Made by a program: the position numbers and the translations under genes
NCBI RefSeq assembly: GCF_016591715.1
Contig: NZ_AP024109.1
Location: 1,674,001-1,738,000 of the forward strand
Source: Mesorhizobium sp. J8
GTDB lineage: Bacteria > Pseudomonadota > Alphaproteobacteria > Rhizobiales > Rhizobiaceae
DNA length: 64,000 nucleotides
Direction of reading: 5' to 3'
Part shown: positions 1 through 32,608 of the stretch, piece after piece
Layout: every line of letters begins with the position of its first letter
How positions within the stretch are numbered: the first letter of the stretch is position 1
Notes under the pieces: generated by a model
Seen by the model: only the letters and a program-made list of their open reading frames with translations
Told to the model about the DNA's origin: nothing
The model's database searches: none

Positions 1-995
1 TGAAGCAGTCCAGCCTGCTCGGCTTCGCGGCGCAGATTCTGGCGCGGCCGCGGACCGATTTGCTGGATCACCAGGCCGGCCGCCAGCGAGCCGAGATCAC
101 CGCAATCTTTAAGGCTGCGCCCGGTCGTGTAGCCGTAGAGGAAGCCCGCGGCATAGAGGTCACCGGCGCCGGTTGTGTCGACCAGTCCCCTGGTCTCCAT
201 GGCCTGGATGGTAACCGTCTCGTCGCCGCGCACGATCACCGAACCCTTTTCCGAACGGGTCACGGCGGCTATTCTACAATCTTTGCGTATCGCCGCCAGC
301 GCGTTCTCGAAGGAGGAGGTCTGGTAGAGCGACTTGATCTCGTGGCTGTTGGCGAAAACGATGTCGACCTTGCCCGAACGCATCAGCTCCAGGAATTCAT
401 CGCGATAGCGGTCGACACAGAAGGAATCCGACAGCGTCATGGAGACTTCGCGCCCGGCCGCATGTGCCAGCCGCGCGGTCTGCCGGATTGCTTTCTTGGC
501 GCGTGGCGGATCCCACAGATAGCCCTCGAAATAGGTGACCTTGGCGCCGGCGGCCTTGTCTGCCTCAACATCCTCCGGTCCGAGCTCGACGCAGGCGCCG
601 AGATAGGTGTTCATCGAGCGCTCGCCGTCCGGCGTGACGAAGATCATCGAGCGCGCCGTCGGCGGTTCGCCCTGGAGCGGCCTGGTGTCGAAGGCCACGC
701 CCTGGGCGTGGATGTCGTGGGTATAGATGTCGCCGAGCGCATCGTTCGAAACCTTGCCGCAGAAGGCGGCGCGGCCACCGAAGCTCGCCACGCCCGCCGC
801 CGTGTTGCCGGCACTGCCGCCCGAAGCCTCGATGGCGGGCCCCATGCGGCTGTAGAGCAGCTCGGCGCGGCTTGTGTCGATGAGGTTCATCGCGCCCTTA
901 ACGATGCCATTGGCCTCCAGGAAGGCTTCGTCGCATTGGGCGATGATATCGACAATGGCATTGCCGATGCAGAGCACGTCATATTCCGGCAGCAA
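1..995 (-). CDS. Adenosine kinase, PfkB family (3' end off window)
   Basis: Sugar/nucleoside kinase of the PfkB family, most like rhizobial adenosine kinase, which phosphorylates adenosine released by the SAM cycle. Seen: N-terminal [16 protein letters not shown], the [11 protein letters not shown] nucleoside-binding stretch and the C-terminal PfkB signature [13 protein letters not shown]. The frame is open to base 1, so the C-terminus lies at or just past the edge. There is no ATG near the conserved N-terminus: the usual Met is replaced by CTG, leaving TTG (995) or GTG (1007) as possible starts, so the start is uncertain. Just upstream is a fragment of a metK 3' end, which suggests this copy once followed a metK gene. 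Confidence 0.85.
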
Positions 996-1075
996 GATCT
1001 CTGGCACGAACGGGCGCGGGTTCGGCCGGCTGGTGTGGGCGTTTCGAGCGCAGATTATCTGGCGTGGAGTCCCTC

Positions 1076-1170
1076 CGGGCTGCGACTCCTGCGTCGCGCC
1101 GCAAGTCGTTGGCTCCGCCGGTCCTCTCCCAGGTGAATTCAGGCTCGTCACGGCCGAGGTTCCGATAGAT
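1076..1170 (-). pseudogene. metK 3'-end fragment
   Basis: On the minus strand this translates to [18 protein letters not shown] and then [11 protein letters not shown], closely matching the last 30 residues of the intact metK ending at 3234. No other part of metK is present here. It sits about 70 bases before the adenosine kinase, the same order and spacing as the metK / kinase-fragment pair near 3150-3234. Confidence 0.8.
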
Positions 1171-1771
1171 CGCGGTAGGAGAACAAGCGGCCCCCTAGCG
1201 ACTTTGATTTCAACCAGATCGTGAACATAGGCCTACCATTCACAGCGACTTGGAACTGCTAAGACTCTGCAAATTTGTTTGAAGGGTCTGTTGCAAGGCT
1301 CTGTCGAAAACGCATGGGATTGGCCACGTGCGAGCAGGCAGTGGACCAACATACCGTTCGGCCGGAGAATCCGAGGGAGTCGGCTGACAGTGCCACGCGA
1401 GCGTGCGGTATCAAGCGCCTGTTTGACCGGTTTGCGCTCCGCCTATGCTAGCCGTGATTGGATCAAGCACGCTTAAGGCAGGTGGTCGTATCCGTCTTAT
1501 CCCGGCAGAGACAAAGCGCGAGGCCGAGAATGTTTGCCCTCACGTCACAATGCGGCTGGCAAGGCCGACACACCCGACCAGTGCGACCGTGTTCGTCTAT
1601 CTCACTTCAAGCAGCAGGGCTGTGGGAATCGCTTCCGCTGCTGGCGCTCAGTGCCCACCTGATTCTTCTTAGATGCAAGCCTGTCCGGGCGTTGGGAAAG
1701 GCTATTCCAGACAGACGCTTTTTTCTAAGCTTTTTGTGGCTCCAGATTCGAAGCGTAAGATCTCCACTGGT
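1171..1771. other. Non-coding, decayed stretch
   Basis: No convincing gene on either strand. It holds only the short IS6-like end at 1284. The reading frames here have no recognisable domains. Confidence 0.5.
1284..1296 (+). repeat. Possible IS6-family terminal repeat remnant
   Basis: GGGTCTGTTGCAA matches the usual outer end of IS6-family elements (GGNNCTGTTGCAA). No transposase follows it, so it would be a solo end. A decayed IS6-type transposase lies at 15.9-16.1 kb. Confidence 0.35.
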
Positions 1772-2626
1772 TTAATCCCGAGCCTCTACAGCATCTCCTA
1801 CTTTAGCTCTACGCCAGCGACGTCGATCGAACGGGAACATAATGTAGTCGCGCACGGTGAGCGGCTCGGGTTGGTTTCGCATGCCAACCTCCGGCCACTC
1901 ATTCTTTTTTGGCCAGTATGCAGTTAGAAAAATCGTGTCCCAAATCGTTGTAAAGAAGCCATAGTTTCGATGCCGGTGATGCGCTTCCATCGAGTGGTGA
2001 ATGCGGTGGAATTTGTTGTCGCCAATGATGTATCGAAGCGGCCCAAGATTGATGCGGGTACTGGAGTGCGAAAGATGGGCCTGAAAGGTGATCAGCGTCA
2101 TGGCCACAATGGGCACTACGCCAGATTCAAAATGGATCAGAGCGAGTGGTAGTGCGACCAAGGCTGCGTAAACGAGTGGCTCGGTGATGTGATGATTGCA
2201 ATTCCATGCCGTCAATTCGCGGATCGAGTGGTGAGTCGCGTGCAGGCGCCAGAGGAATGGAACAGCATGCTGAGCGCGGTGCATCCAATAGTAGAAGAAG
2301 TCGCCTGCAATCGCGACTAAAACTCCCGAAAGAACCGCCAATCCACTGTTGACGATCGCATTGTCGGAGTGAAGCATTCCGAAATTGATCGTTACGAGCG
2401 GCTTTATTCCTATCCAAGCCAGGCCAACAGCGAAGAAGTGCCAAACAAACGCGCCGAGTCCGAGCCGAATAAGCCAATTCCGCACGCCGCGAACATATGA
2501 GGCAAGACTGTATCGATAAGCCGGAAAGGTGAGTTCCAGCGCGGCGCAAATGGTAGCGAAGACCACAACCAACTCGAGCGATTTCACGAAAATCTGGGTT
2601 ATCTGATTAAAATCGAGAATTTGCAT
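1772..2626 (-). CDS. Sterol desaturase / fatty acid hydroxylase family membrane protein behind a nod box
   Basis: 284-residue integral membrane di-iron oxygenase of the fatty acid hydroxylase/sterol desaturase superfamily, which uses O2 to hydroxylate or desaturate a lipid. Seen: three histidine clusters, H116RAQH120, H129ATHH133 and HRIHHSMEAHHRHRN at about 207-221, plus hydrophobic segments near 15-35, 58-75, 90-112 and 150-180. The ATG at 2626 has GGAG 8 bases upstream. The gene stands alone. A nod box lies 269 bp upstream in the correct orientation, so NodD-flavonoid control is likely. The substrate is unknown. The acyl chain of the Nod factor, a hopanoid or a membrane lipid are all possible; this is inference. 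It matches no nod gene I can name. Confidence 0.88.
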   Translation of the reverse strand: MQILDFNQITQIFVKSLELVVVFATICAALELTFPAYRYSLASYVRGVRNWLIRLGLGAFVWHFFAVGLAWIGIKPLVTINFGMLHSDNAIVNSGLAVLSGVLVAIAGDFFYYWMHRAQHAVPFLWRLHATHHSIRELTAWNCNHHITEPLVYAALVALPLALIHFESGVVPIVAMTLITFQAHLSHSSTRINLGPLRYIIGDNKFHRIHHSMEAHHRHRNYGFFTTIWDTIFLTAYWPKKNEWPEVGMRNQPEPLTVRDYIMFPFDRRRWRRAKVGDAVEARD

Positions 2627-2894
2627 TTGTTTGCTCCGGCGAATCGTTCAAAATGCGCCAGCTTCAGGTCGGATCTTCGAGGCGGTCATCTTCGTCATCA
2701 GGGCGAATCCAATAGTTATGAATCTCCAGCGCCGCCCGACAAATTCGAGCTCGGCAGCCGAATCTATACCCGCGCAGAACGTATGAATTGCACGGTGGTC
2801 GGCCATGCAACTTGCGTTTCGCTGCGCATCCAAACGGTGATTATTCCGCCGGCACGGCGGGGCACCGCGGGAGCGGACTATGCGAGGTTCTCCC
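2627..2894. promoter_or_regulatory. Leader between nod box and desaturase gene
   Basis: 269 bp on the minus strand from the nod box to the ATG at 2626. I see no other gene. nod-box transcripts usually start about 25 bp past the box, which would give a leader of roughly 240 nt. Confidence 0.4.
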
Positions 2895-2943
2895 GGATTG
2901 GTAAAATTGATTGTTTGGATAAGCCGTATCCATTTCCCAAATG
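2895..2943 (-). promoter_or_regulatory. nod box (NodD binding site) facing the desaturase gene
   Basis: Read on the minus strand, the right half contains ATCC followed by AAACAATCAATTTTACCAAT and CC, which fits the nod-box consensus at every fixed position. Left of it, GATA-N4-TT-ATC fits the middle part with one mismatch. The far left keeps only CAT and ATG GAT and is degenerate. Downstream on the same strand is the sterol-desaturase gene. Confidence 0.82.
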
Positions 2944-3050
2944 AGTCGGAGAAGCAGAGGAGCGACGTGGATTGTCCGCCTGAGGTTGCAAGCTATGCGC
3001 CATTGTGTTGCGGCGGCGACCCGCTATGGCAAAAGAACTTTGTGAACCAG

Positions 3051-3147
3051 CAGCTCGGCGGGTCGGGCGTTGTTGAGGTTCATCGCGCCCTTACTGAGGC
3101 GATGATTTCGGCGATGGCATTGCCGATGAAAAGCGCATCAACGTCTC
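3051..3147 (-). pseudogene. Adenosine kinase 5'-end fragment
   Basis: On the minus strand it reads GDVDALFIGNAIAEIIAS, matching the N-terminus of the kinase at 1-995. An internal deletion removes about 12 codons, and the sequence then rejoins at the KGAMNL region in another frame before similarity ends. It lies just downstream of metK, where an intact kinase gene would be expected. Confidence 0.75.
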
Positions 3148-3233
3148 CGCAACAGACCTCCCGGCCTTCTGCCATGCCGGCTGCGCGAGGTCTGGTCATG
3201 ACATGGTGTTCCGCTTCCATTTTGCGTTGGCTC

Positions 3234-4430
3234 TCAAGGGGCGGCGAGCCCTGCCTCGCGCCGCAAGTCGTCGGCTCTGTCAGTCCTCTCCCAGGTGAAC
3301 TCAGGCTCTTCACGGCCGAAATGCCCATAGGTCGCGGTCTTGCGGTAAATCGGGCGTAAGAGATCAAGCATCTTGATAATGCCCTTCGGTCTGAGATCGA
3401 ACAGCTCAAGAACGAGCCGCTCGATCGTTCTTTCCTCAATCCTTGCGGTGCCGAAAGTGTTGACCATGACAGACACCGGACTTGCCACGCCGATCGCGTA
3501 AGCAACCTGCACCTCGCAGACGTCCGCAAGGCCGCTCGCCACGATATTCTTGGCGACATACCGGGCGGCATAGGCTGCCGAGCGGTCAACCTTGGACGGG
3601 TCCTTGCCCGAAAAGGCGCCGCCGCCGTGGCGCCCCATTCCACCATAGGAATCGACGATGATCTTGCGTCCAGTGAGGCCGCAGTCGCCGCGCGGCCCAC
3701 CGACTACGAACCGACCCGTTGGGTTGACCAGAATTCTGATGCCTTCCGCGTCCAGGTCGGGCGGCAGAACCGGCTTTATGATTTCCTCAATGACGCCCTC
3801 GCGGACCGTCTCCTGCGAAACCTGCTCATCGTGCTGCGTCGACACGACGATGGTGTCCAGGGCGATAGGGCGCAAACCCTCATAGCGCACCGACACTTGC
3901 GACTTCACGTCAGGACGCAACCAGCTAAGCTCTCCTGCCTTGCGGACATCCGCCTGCCTTTTCGTCAAACGGTGGGCGAGCTGGATTGGCAAAGGCATCA
4001 GCGTGTCGGTCTCGCGGCATGCATAGCCGAACATGAGGCCCTGATCTCCCGCTCCCTGTTCGAGGTCCTGCCCCCGACCTTCGTCAACGCCTTGGCTAAT
4101 GTCGGGCGACTGCTCGGTGAGGGCATGAACGACTGAGCAATGCCGGCCATCAAAGCCAACGGCCTCATCGTCGTATCCAACATCAATGATCGTATCGCGG
4201 GCAACCTGGCTGTAGTCGACATTTGCGTCGCTGGTAATCTCGCCGGCCAGAACGACTGTCCCTGTCTTCACCAAGGCTTCACATGTCTTCACCAGGGTTT
4301 CACAAGCGACGCGCGCCTTCGGATCGAAGCGGAGCACCGCATCGAGGATAGCATCCGAGATGTTGTCGGCCAGCTTATCCGGGTGTCCCGCGCCTACCGA
4401 TTCGGAAGAGAATACGAACTGCCTAGCCAT
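3234..4430 (-). CDS. metK: S-adenosylmethionine synthetase
   Basis: 398-residue methionine adenosyltransferase making SAM from methionine and ATP in the cytosol. Seen: [26 protein letters not shown] at the N-terminus, the hexapeptide GAGDQG, and the [19 protein letters not shown] loop. The ATG at 4430 was chosen because [12 protein letters not shown] is the usual family N-terminus; the longer reading to 4604 runs into glyA. It is the last intact gene of arsR-glyA-metK, 52 bp after glyA. Odd: residues [10 protein letters not shown] contain a 7-residue insertion from a 21-bp tandem duplication. The reading frame is otherwise intact, so the enzyme may still work. Confidence 0.95.
4263..4304 (-). 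repeat. 21-bp tandem duplication inside metK
   Basis: Two adjacent 21-bp units, 4263-4283 and 4284-4304, differ at only two bases. They add CEALVKT after CETLVKT. Typical MetK has a single copy followed by G-x-V-x-x-AGE. Confidence 0.9.
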
Positions 4431-4482
4431 GAAATGCCTCGCGTCGGATGTTAGAGTTGCGTGGGCGCGTGCTCGAGCTGCC

Positions 4483-5820
4483 TTACCTGTCGGTGATGCC
4501 TGGCACCTCGAACGCCGCGCACAACTCGGCAACGTTTCTTCGCACGCCGGCATGAAGATCTTCGTCGTCTGGCCGCCGGAGAACGGAGTCAATGAAGCCG
4601 GCAATTTGCACCATTTCCCCCTCGCGCATGCCCATTGACGTCACTGCCGGCGATCCCAAGCGAATTCCGCTCGTAACCGCCGGGTCGCGCGGATCGCCCG
4701 GCACCATGTTAAAGTTCGCAATGATGCCCGCCCTTGCTAATCGCTCGGCATAGGCCTTGCCGGACAGTGGTCGATCGCGCAGATCAAGGATGAGCATGTG
4801 ATTGTCGGTCCCGCCGGTGACCAGGTCATAGCCTCGCTCTAGCAACGCCTGGGCCAGGGTCTTGGCATTCTTGACGATCTGTTGGCCGTAGCTACGGAAG
4901 GACGGGGTCGCGGCTTCTTGTAAGGCGACCGCTAGCGCAGCGATAACATTCATATGCGGCCCGCCTTGCAGGTGAGGGAAGACCGCGCGATCTATCCGCC
5001 TGGCTAGATTGTGTTTGCTCTTCGGATGATACAGAGCCTGATAGCGATCTTCCTTCTTGGACAAAATGAAGCCACCGCGGGGGCCGCGGATCGATTTGTG
5101 CGAGGTGCTGCTGACGACGTCGCAATGGCGCACGGGGTTCGGGTGTACTTCTGCAGCAATCAGGCCGCTGATGTGCGCAATGTCGGCTACAAGGTAGGAG
5201 TCCGCCTCCACAGCGATTTCTGCCATTGCCGCATAGTCAAAGAGACGCGGATAAGCAGTTCCGCCCACCCAAATGAGCCGCGGCCGTTCCCGCTTGGCTG
5301 TCTCGCGCAAGCGGTCATAGTCAATTTGCTGCGTTGTTTCGTGCAGCCCGTAGGGGACTCGTCGATAGTCAGTTCCGGAAAAGTTGATGGCCCAACCATG
5401 GGTCAGATGCCCCCCTTCCGGAATGGGCAAGCCCATGACTTTGTCGCAGGGCTTCAAAAGCGCGCGGTACACAGCCTGATTGGCCGGCGAGCCGGAATAA
5501 GGCTGGACGTTGGCGTGTTCGCTGCCAAATAGTTCCTTCAAGCGCTCAATGGCGAGGTTCTCAAGCTCATCGACGATCTCGTTTCCCGCGTAGTAGCGCG
5601 CACCGGGGTACCCCTCGGCATACTTGTTTGTGAAAATCGACCCGGTCGCTTCCAGAACTGCCGATGAGGCAAAGTTTTCAGAAGCGATTAGTTTGAGCGT
5701 CGTGCGCTCCTGTCGCTCTTGTCTCAGAAGCAGTTCGTGAACACGGCTATCAACCGCGGCTAAGGAAGAGCGCTCGCAAGTGTCGGGCTGCTCGATGGCG
5801 AGATCGGCGGAGTTGTCCAT
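4483..5820 (-). CDS. glyA: Serine hydroxymethyltransferase
   Basis: About 445-residue PLP enzyme converting serine and tetrahydrofolate to glycine and 5,10-methylene-THF, feeding one-carbon units to methionine and SAM synthesis. Seen: [30 protein letters not shown], the PLP-lysine region [14 protein letters not shown] (usually TTTHKTLRGPRGG) and the C-terminal [10 protein letters not shown]. The start is either ATG 5820 (GGAG 12 bases upstream) or TTG 5847, one base after the arsR stop, which would be translationally coupled. It is probably a second, island-borne copy; the divergent PLP-lysine region supports this. Confidence 0.93.
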
Positions 5821-5848
5821 CGTGGGTTCGCGCTCCAATTGGATCAAT

Positions 5849-6205
5849 CTATTTCGCGATTAGGCAGGCTGCCCCCTTCGGCTGCTCGTCTCGTATCGCT
5901 TCGAGTCGTTGTAGGTCTCGTTCATGATGGCCATCGCAGTGGGGCAGGAGATCGACTAGTAATTGGATCAGACCGCCGTCCTTGCCTCGTGCTTTGAGTT
6001 GATAGGAGCGCCACGGACGTTGTTCGTTGCAACAAAGAAAGTCCGCTCTGGCGAGTAGCCGGACATGTCGCACAACGCGATCGCGACGTAGATCCAAAAT
6101 GTCTGCCAGCTCGCAGACAGTTAGGTCTGCATGCGCGCAAAGGCCCAGGATTCGAAGGCGATCAAGATGCGCTGCCGTCCGTAAGCGACTGACCAGTGTC
6201 ATCAT
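5849..6205 (-). CDS. ArsR-family winged-helix regulator of the SAM-cycle operon
   Basis: 118 residues. Residues 1-80 form an ArsR-type winged helix: RLRILGLCAHADLTVCELADIL, then a recognition region (RDRVVRHVRLLARADFL) and a wing (NEQRPWRSYQL). No metal-binding Cys pair is seen. ArsR-type regulators next to metF, metK or ahcY genes usually sense SAM-cycle metabolites (SahR-like), and many alphaproteobacterial members carry a C-terminal methyltransferase; here the protein ends soon after the winged helix. First gene of arsR-glyA-metK, so autoregulation is likely. Function is inferred from fold and context. Confidence 0.75.
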   Translation of the reverse strand: MMTLVSRLRTAAHLDRLRILGLCAHADLTVCELADILDLRRDRVVRHVRLLARADFLCCNEQRPWRSYQLKARGKDGGLIQLLVDLLPHCDGHHERDLQRLEAIRDEQPKGAACLIAK

Positions 6206-6247
6206 TGTTCAGCATCATCGAGCCATATGGAAAGACTGGATACTCTT

Positions 6248-6263
6248 TGCATTGAATTTGCCA
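6248..6263 (-). promoter_or_regulatory. Candidate sigma-54 promoter for arsR-glyA-metK
   Basis: Minus strand TGGCAAATTCAATGCA has GG-N10-GC spacing and a good -24 element, but ATGC instead of TTGC at -12. A start near 6237 would be about 30 bp before arsR. Upstream at 6304-6320 is TGT-N11-ACA, one base longer than the NifA consensus, so NifA control is not established. Confidence 0.4.
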
Positions 6264-6503
6264 TCTGGCGCTCTCCGCAGATGCAGCAGCTTTCAAACCA
6301 AATTGTTCCACAACTGGACACTCTCGGTGCACGCAAGCAGACGTATAATTAGGACGAGCGCTCTTGTTGCCATGGCCTGTAGCCATAGATTGGGTCCAGT
6401 TCGGCGGTCGGAGATCAGGGGAACCGCGGTATTGAATCCTCTCACTGACCTCAGACGTTGAGATATGCTATCACCCACAGCGATTTCTGGTTGCTAAGTG
6501 TCT

Positions 6504-6743
6504 ATGAACTTCTTTGAAGAAACTGTTGCAACTGCTCGCCGAGATGCCGGTCAAGATGGGTCGAGCCGCATGGTTTCAAGCCAACGGGGCGGCATGGTGG
6601 GGATTCGAAGGATGCCAGACATCCTTGGGTCGAAGTGCACCGGCTGGGGTGACGCGGCCTGCGCCATTGATGGCGTGAGCTTAGAAGACCTGCTCGACAG
6701 GATCGAGGCCAGCCGTCGCGACAGCGCTGAGATGTGCTCTTAG
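6504..6743 (+). CDS. Small hypothetical ORF
   Basis: 79 codons from ATG 6504 (or 81 from GTG 6498). No recognised domain. The C-terminal SLEDLLDRIEASRRDSAEM could form a helix. There is no clear Shine-Dalgarno sequence. It may be a remnant rather than a gene. Confidence 0.25.
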   Translation: MNFFEETVATARRDAGQDGSSRMVSSQRGGMVGIRRMPDILGSKCTGWGDAACAIDGVSLEDLLDRIEASRRDSAEMCS

Positions 6744-6769
6744 GGTATGAGAGCGCTTGGTATCCTTGG

Positions 6770-7159
6770 CTAGGCTCCAGGCAAAGTGCCCGTCGATGCC
6801 ACTTCGAATAGGTCGAGCAGAATTGCCACCCCGACGCCGCAGGCGGTCACGATGAGGCCTGCCATGAAAGTGCGGTTGGCGCGCACGTAGGCGCGGCGTC
6901 GCAGCGAACTCATGTCGAGCAACATCCATAGCGCCCGCAACTGCGATGCTATCCCGACCAGGATCGGGATCACTGCGAACAGGTCGTAAAATTGCCACGG
7001 CACCGGGTTTGCCGCCCAATGTGTGACGAAACCCAGTGAAAACGCCAGCAATATGCCGACGACGGTGATTGTGCCGTTTCGGAAGACGGTCTCGATCGGT
7101 TCTTCCTTGGGATTATGCTCGTCCAATCGCCTCTCTCTGCAGGTCTGCGCAGTCATCAC
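6770..7159 (-). CDS. Small membrane protein, three predicted TM helices
   Basis: 129 residues with hydrophobic segments near 30-47 (TITVVGILLAFSLGFVTHW), 58-80 (FYDLFAVIPILVGIASQL) and 100-121 (AGLIVTACGVGVAILLDLF), separated by short Arg-rich loops. No catalytic motif is seen. It looks like a genuine membrane protein, but I cannot name a family. GTG 7159 or ATG 7156 are possible starts. It stands alone between decayed stretches. Confidence 0.65.
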   Translation of the reverse strand: MMTAQTCRERRLDEHNPKEEPIETVFRNGTITVVGILLAFSLGFVTHWAANPVPWQFYDLFAVIPILVGIASQLRALWMLLDMSSLRRRAYVRANRTFMAGLIVTACGVGVAILLDLFEVASTGTLPGA

Positions 7160-31639: not shown

Positions 31640-32608
31640 TCAACCCCGCGCGACCGGCAATTTTGTGCCGACCATCGCCGTTTCGTCGAGGACCGCATGG
31701 CGGAAACGATAGAGCCTTGCCGGTCGCCCGCCCGTGTCGACGGAAGTCTCACCGGTCTCCTCGACCAGCTCCTGCTGCTCTATGAGGCGACGAAAATTGG
31801 GCTTGTTGATCAGCCTGCCGGCGAGCGCCTCGACGGTTCGTTGCAGCTGTAACAGCGTAAAAGATTGCGGCATCAGCTCAAAGACGACCGGCCGATATTT
31901 GATCTTGGAGCGCAGTCGCGCGATGCCCGTCGCCACGATGCGGCGATGATCGGCAACCATGGACTTGCTGGGCACCAGCGATGGCCGCGTCGCATCGCGT
32001 CCGCTTGCCGCCTCTTGGACCAGCCCTGCTTCGTAGACCAACTCATAGCGCTGAAGCGTAAGTTCCTCGTTCCAATGGCGGTCGTCGAAGCCGAAGGCCT
32101 TCGCCGCCCGCTGCCGACGTTCGCGTCGCATGGCCGCGTCGCCGGCACTATCTGCCCATTCAATCAAGCGGGGCCGCAATACGTCCAGCACCACCGGCGG
32201 TGCGCCGGAGCGGTGATCCTCCCATGGAAAATATTCGTACCAGCTTCGCCAGCCGCACTTGGACGAGTCCGCACCCTGTTCCTTGCGCGTCAGTGCCAGA
32301 TAGCTGATGGAGATGGCGCGCTGCCGGCGCTCGCCGCCGATGCGGTCTCGATCTGCGAAGGTGTAGAGTTGTTCGATGTAGCCCAGCGGATGGCCGGTCT
32401 GCTGCTCGACCCACCCTCTCAAACCGGATTGCAGCGATCGGTGCTCAAGCGCAAATGGTCCGGAAGGCAATGTGTCCGCCTGCCCGATTGTGAGGACACA
32501 GGGTTCATTGCCGGATACGGCGACGACAAAGGCGATCAGGTCAACTTTGGCTTCGTCCGCCGTGACGGCGGTTCTGTGTTTCCTTGTTCCTTTTGCCTGA
32601 TTGTCCAT
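31640..32608 (-). CDS. nadQ: NadQ-type Nudix-related NAD regulator
   Basis: About 322 residues. The N-terminal 150 resemble a degenerate Nudix domain (ADEAKVDLIAFVVAVSGNEPCVLTI, LRGWVEQQTGHPLGYIEQLYTFADRDR). The C-terminus is an NrtR-like winged helix (FELMPQSFTLLQLQRTVEALAGRLINKPNFRR). Such proteins repress nad genes in alphaproteobacteria according to NAD status. Immediately upstream of and codirectional with nadABC. ATG 32608 was chosen over TTG 32701, but SD support is poor. Confidence 0.82.
   Translation of the reverse strand: MDNQAKGTRKHRTAVTADEAKVDLIAFVVAVSGNEPCVLTIGQADTLPSGPFALEHRSLQSGLRGWVEQQTGHPLGYIEQLYTFADRDRIGGERRQRAISISYLALTRKEQGADSSKCGWRSWYEYFPWEDHRSGAPPVVLDVLRPRLIEWADSAGDAAMRRERRQRAAKAFGFDDRHWNEELTLQRYELVYEAGLVQEAASGRDATRPSLVPSKSMVADHRRIVATGIARLRSKIKYRPVVFELMPQSFTLLQLQRTVEALAGRLINKPNFRRLIEQQELVEETGETSVDTGGRPARLYRFRHAVLDETAMVGTKLPVARG

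Follow-up and report, generated by a model that had tools for sequence, protein, structure and literature searches.

The question raised by a 64,000-nucleotide (nt) stretch of the genome of Mesorhizobium sp. J8 (contig NZ_AP024109.1, positions 1,674,001 to 1,738,000; the whole of it is termed the window, and positions are counted from its first letter) is which gene is served there by a nod box, the type of site bound by NodD, and on what the product of that gene would act. The candidate is the gene of a membrane hydroxylase downstream of the box (Table). Judged from sequence, the locus is very probably noeM under NodD control, with a product acting on the reducing end of the Nod factor, and the gene matches one that already has a name among nodulation genes, which makes it a sound find but mostly of a known kind. 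In our accounting, the box, the gene, its clade and the pairing of gene and box were computed here, the change to the Nod factor and its symbiotic effect are taken from papers on Cupriavidus taiwanensis, and both induction in J8 and a hydroxylation step at C1 are what we infer.

Table. Features of the noeM locus of Mesorhizobium sp. J8, in window coordinates
Feature	Position	Strand	Basis
Nod box (NodD-binding-site-like), noeM type, CATTT left end	2895-2943	minus	consensus score and conservation
Leader, nod box to start codon, 268 nt	2627-2894	minus	sequence; identity over 38 distinct loci
noeM, 284-amino-acid membrane protein, fatty acid hydroxylase superfamily	1772-2626	minus	PF04116, clade, model
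Second metK (S-adenosylmethionine synthetase), upstream neighbour, outside the nod-box unit	3234-4604	minus	Pfam
Remnant copy of the PfkB-kinase gene's first part, in direct repeat with pieces of 856-981	3049-3140		self-BLAST, 45 + 43 bp at 84%
Remnant copy of the 3′ end of metK, in direct repeat with 3239-3338	1077-1176		85% over 100 bp

Scoring was against a 49-bp nod-box consensus with 41 fixed positions. Read from 2943 to 2895, the minus strand agrees with it, ungapped, at 35 of the 41, while the runner-up among the 49-mers of both strands of the window reaches 25. The right half (2896-2920, minus strand) fits ATCNAAACAATCNATTTTACCAATC with no mismatch and is the window's sole match when up to 3 mismatches are allowed; in 100 shuffles of the sequence the pattern was not met. 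On both the presence of the box and its consensus right half the original prediction is thus borne out. In the 6,690,860-bp genome the 25-base right half has 3 matches at up to 3 mismatches and a reversed control pattern has none. Exact right halves number just two, that of the noeM box and that of a box before nodA at 1447122; the remaining match, at 1545880 with 3 mismatches, precedes a NodS-like gene by about 0.4 kb. A chance origin of the box was rejected on the score of 35 against 25, the shuffles and the reversed control, as was its belonging to some other gene, the minus strand between box and noeM holding none. The left end of the consensus is YATCCA, from which the CATTTG of the window departs, and the left half had accordingly been called degenerate. 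Across 38 distinct noeM boxes, however, no base of CATTT falls below 90% conservation, which makes such a left half the noeM norm. The predicted NodD site is, on its sequence, well placed to control the membrane hydroxylase gene.

The frame of that gene has no internal stops, and its product matches PF04116 (E 3.9e-25, residues 102-235). The claim of a di-iron-type membrane hydroxylase with His clusters holds: H116/H120, H129/H132/H133 and H207/H210/H211, together with H145 and H187, are His in all 62 proteins compared (38/38 of the clade described below and 24/24 outside it). A structure model with a predicted local distance difference test score (pLDDT) of 94.6 is helical, with long helices at 6-33, 41-72, 90-121, 149-162 and 171-187. 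Identity as OlsE, the ornithine lipid hydroxylase, was rejected, the NF052566 profile giving 80.2 bits, alignable over residues 99-269, against a cut-off of 475.

A relative search gave 65 loci, of which 50 are at least 70% identical, the next being Pararobbsia alpina at 48%. By organism name these 50 come from Mesorhizobium, Neorhizobium, Sinorhizobium/Ensifer, Allorhizobium, Rhizobium, Paraburkholderia, Trinickia and Cupriavidus, all of them genera that include nodulating members. In a tree of 62 selected rows the window protein falls with 37 rhizobial proteins in a clade of 38 (support 100/99) that has two C. taiwanensis plasmid genes inside and 24 rows outside, and in every one of 200 bootstrap trees this rhizobial clade amounts to a single change. 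Just outside stand three metagenomic proteins (P0028, P0029 and P0031, 55-63% identity), and inside, the C. taiwanensis protein SWF66294 is 72% identical to that of the window over 282 columns with one gap. Daubech and colleagues reportedly describe a transmembrane NoeM with a fatty acid hydroxylase domain and a nod box upstream, expression dependent on NodD and luteolin, and a rhizobia-only clade of genes downstream of nod boxes. In their passages on the gene, PMC10011098 and PMC7141107 both cite that work (Daubech et al. 2019, MPMI 32:1635-1648) and state that noeM opens and oxidises the reducing-end sugar of the Nod factor. The original prediction knew of no named nod gene of this family; these papers supply the name, and the window protein sits in the clade that contains the C. 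taiwanensis genes.

Does the pairing of box and gene extend beyond J8? Scored were 52 clade loci (the 50 and 2 more from a second relative search), and later 59 (the 52, six plasmid loci and the window). Of the 28 clade records heading that second search nine were taken and eight counted, a truncated R. tropici copy being left out. These rows include near-copies, the distinct boxes numbering 38. A box of at least 29/41 lies within 450 nt upstream of the gene in 38 of the 52 loci, versus 2/52 on the opposite strand and 0/52 downstream. The recurrence of nod box plus family in other rhizobia, a point raised by the original prediction, is evident from the extended set, where an upstream box reaches at least 29 in 44 of 59 rows and at least 28 in 46, alpha- and beta-rhizobial. 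Among these 46 rows the distance from the end of the box to the start codon is 251-273 nt in 29 and 54-316 nt in the remaining 17. BLASTN of window positions 1-7000 against 24 alphaproteobacterial loci finds similarity extending over the neighbours in seven, all Mesorhizobium (L010, L012-L016, L058), with the order kinase-noeM-metK kept. In the other 17 it begins at 1742-1781, and in 12 of those it stops, in some cases after several pieces, between 2942 and 3100, in other words as a unit of gene and box; in the remaining five (L022-L024, L083, L089) it stops short of the box. For R. gallicum R602sp an incomplete gene table lists nodD2 as the first gene upstream of noeM. As far as sequence can tell, the association of box and gene holds from genus to genus.

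Constraint on the box is also apparent from mean pairwise identity over the 38 distinct loci, which is 0.744 for the box (right half 0.81, left half 0.68), 0.636 for the leader and 0.415 for the 23 columns that precede the box. This is pertinent to the notion of a silent, relic box and an uninduced noeM in J8. Decayed noeM boxes do exist (L022-L024, with one base missing from the spacing of the halves and a changed right half), and, according to PMC7643969, induction in R. leguminosarum was inhibited when one base between the two conserved parts of a nod box was deleted. The window box, however, has its halves at canonical spacing and the right half intact, and is of the kind that is better conserved than its surroundings, so that a relic is hardly to be expected here. 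The leader is itself fairly conserved (in the window and also in L010, L011, L020, L050 and L090). It ends in a ribosome-binding-like CGGAG directly 5′ of the noeM ATG, each base of which is kept in at least 90%. Short reading frames within it are common to close relatives and not to all of the 12 leaders inspected.

Whether the box serves noeM alone is a separate matter. The hydroxylase had been called the only gene downstream. It is indeed the first after the box, and it is not provably the only one, since a PfkB-family kinase gene on the noeM strand starts about 0.8 kb past the end of noeM (its exact start is not fixed). Read-through could tie that kinase to NodD: the strand is shared, no intrinsic-terminator-like site is seen in 900-3400 by a scan that is weak evidence, and the kinase-noeM-metK order is common to the seven Mesorhizobium loci. 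The gap is long, however, and the other 17 loci compared at the DNA level are without kinase similarity beside noeM save for a 130-bp piece in L011, which makes a box driving more than noeM rather unlikely.

With noeM under its own box as the favored interpretation, plant flavonoids would activate NodD, which would act at the box so that transcription proceeds through the leader into noeM. NoeM, an integral membrane protein with the His clusters of a di-iron hydroxylase, would then open and oxidise the reducing-end N-acetylglucosamine (GlcNAc) in the Nod-factor pathway. The chemistry envisaged is insertion of one oxygen at the anomeric C-H to give a hydrated lactone and from it an open-chain aldonic acid (+16 Da), as a single hydroxylation of the anomeric carbon would yield the opened, oxidised reducing end reported. 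That NoeM is itself the di-iron monooxygenase that hydroxylates this C-H, with opening to the aldonic acid, is proposed tentatively as a possibility that falls short of even chances. If true, the noeM clade would have switched to a carbohydrate substrate within a superfamily whose members mostly hydroxylate lipids. Candidates for residues involved in such a lipid-to-sugar switch are F23, R54, F264 and W271 (38/38 of the clade) and A66 (37/38), none of them present in the 24 outside rows, and this short list is a starting point for asking what might let a lipid-hydroxylase fold take a sugar as substrate. Alternatively, NoeM may act on a lipid, with the sugar being changed indirectly. The substrates originally envisaged were the Nod-factor acyl chain, a hopanoid and some membrane lipid; GlcNAc at the reducing end is the likely one, because the protein falls in a clade with the C. 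taiwanensis genes. A NodD-controlled hydroxylase of the Nod-factor acyl chain or of a membrane lipid is very unlikely given the score far under the OlsE cut-off and the presence of C. taiwanensis genes in the clade, the noeM papers reporting, where they treat the gene, a reducing-end change and not lipid hydroxylation.

Several observations weigh against assigning the locus to a NodD-controlled noeM. Thirteen of the 59 clade rows have no box of at least 28: the three decayed ones (L022-L024); four from betaproteobacteria (L038, L039, L048 and L060, of which the strains of the last three hold another, boxed copy, and in L048 a box lies some 1.4 kb upstream); five in which the 5′ part of the gene is unmatched (L049, L052-L055); and L089. 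The link to noeM runs through two C. taiwanensis plasmids other than that of the type strain, and their boxes score 28 as against 35 in the window. In addition, the relevant passages place noeM mostly in symbionts of Mimosa pudica (PMC10011098) and have its inactivation in C. taiwanensis affect nodulation competitiveness alone (PMC7141107).

Within the genus of the window, noeM is found in 15 of 146 genomes and nodA in 101, with all 15 noeM genomes being nodA-positive. The chance of this overlap is 0.0028 if genomes are independent, a figure that is rough because they are related. A box of at least 32 is present in 10 of the 15, a decayed Lotus-type box in four, and none in one (whose match starts from residue 42). 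In M. erdmanii, M. loti DSM 2626 and M. intechi, which the pertinent part of PMC7643969 lists among L2 Lotus islands, the box is one base short between its halves and the noeM gene intact; the same combination of intact frame, shortened box and altered right half is seen across the Lotus-type Mesorhizobium loci (L022-L024, L103-L106).

Elsewhere it is the gene that is broken. The noeM match in R. tropici CIAT 899 plasmid b (L085) and in L052-L055 starts only at residue 73, and in CIAT 899 an IS110 transposase gene is directly upstream of the remnant, which is unannotated. The pSym of Cupriavidus necator UYPR2.512 carries two copies (L057, L060), of which the boxed one has a frame ending after 103 residues and the open one has no nod box. 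Other genes recur near noeM. In Paraburkholderia (L042, L043, L044, L045, L047, L056) a GH12-type glycosyl hydrolase gene follows 91-97 nt after noeM on the same strand, the family, PF01670, having been tested in L084, the copy of P. phymatum. Six further loci have a gap of 239-902 nt, and L038 one of about 9 kb. At 91-97 nt, on the same strand and lacking its own nod box, the GH12 gene may share that of noeM. In L087-L090 a gene of the aldose 1-epimerase family, without a nod box and in varying orientation, lies about 0.6-3.3 kb from noeM; these genes are 78-98% identical to one another (Pfam tested in L088). A 321-residue hypothetical protein near M. huakuii noeM (L083) has a 71% identical counterpart at window 31643-32608.

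As to how the unit came to its present site, the two remnants in the Table are suggestive. Pieces of the kinase beginning and of the metK end recur on the far sides of noeM (the protein match of the latter being to metK residues 422-455 at 68%), so the direct repeats may be a trace of insertion of the noeM unit at a metK/kinase junction with duplication of the junction, or of tandem duplication. An empty site, that is the junction without the unit, was not seen among the loci compared. The neighboring metK is 50% identical to another at 861911, and PMC3538637 records nodule expression of a metK on the R7A island of M. loti. Beyond the window, the genome has two full nodA genes and a remnant with stops, nodB, nodC, nodU and two NodS-like genes of different type, the one near 1545880 scoring 175 bits against a cut-off of 300. 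The nod gene sites are at 1435713-1452000 and about 1544807-1545469, with several nod boxes, and a 49-bp scan of three 20-kb stretches gives four boxes at 34-38 around the nodA and nodB genes.

Mesorhizobium sp. J8 thus has noeM with an intact noeM-type box, which implies that its Nod factors may carry an oxidised reducing end. In alpha- and beta-rhizobia box and gene occur together, with the box decayed in the Lotus type and the 5′ part of the gene absent in the R. tropici type. New as details are the flanking direct repeats at the metK/kinase junction, the decayed Lotus-type boxes and the GH12 gene after noeM in Paraburkholderia.

Among known proteins and systems, the yeast fatty acid hydroxylase Scs7p (PDB 4zr0), a member of the di-iron hydroxylase superfamily, ranks top of the solved structures in a structural comparison, with a likeness to the window protein that is weak. 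OlsE has its superfamily in common with that protein and differs in that the score is far under the cut-off of its model. The study of islands of Lotus-nodulating Mesorhizobium (PMC7643969) likewise deals with NodD regulons and assigns nod boxes to proximal genes; unlike here, the words noeM, hydroxylase and desaturase do not occur in its main text. Closest is C. taiwanensis noeM, with the shared clade, the 72% identity, a nod box upstream and nod genes in the genome, the difference being that there the gene is on a plasmid, whereas here it lies on a single 6.69-Mb contig beside a second metK.
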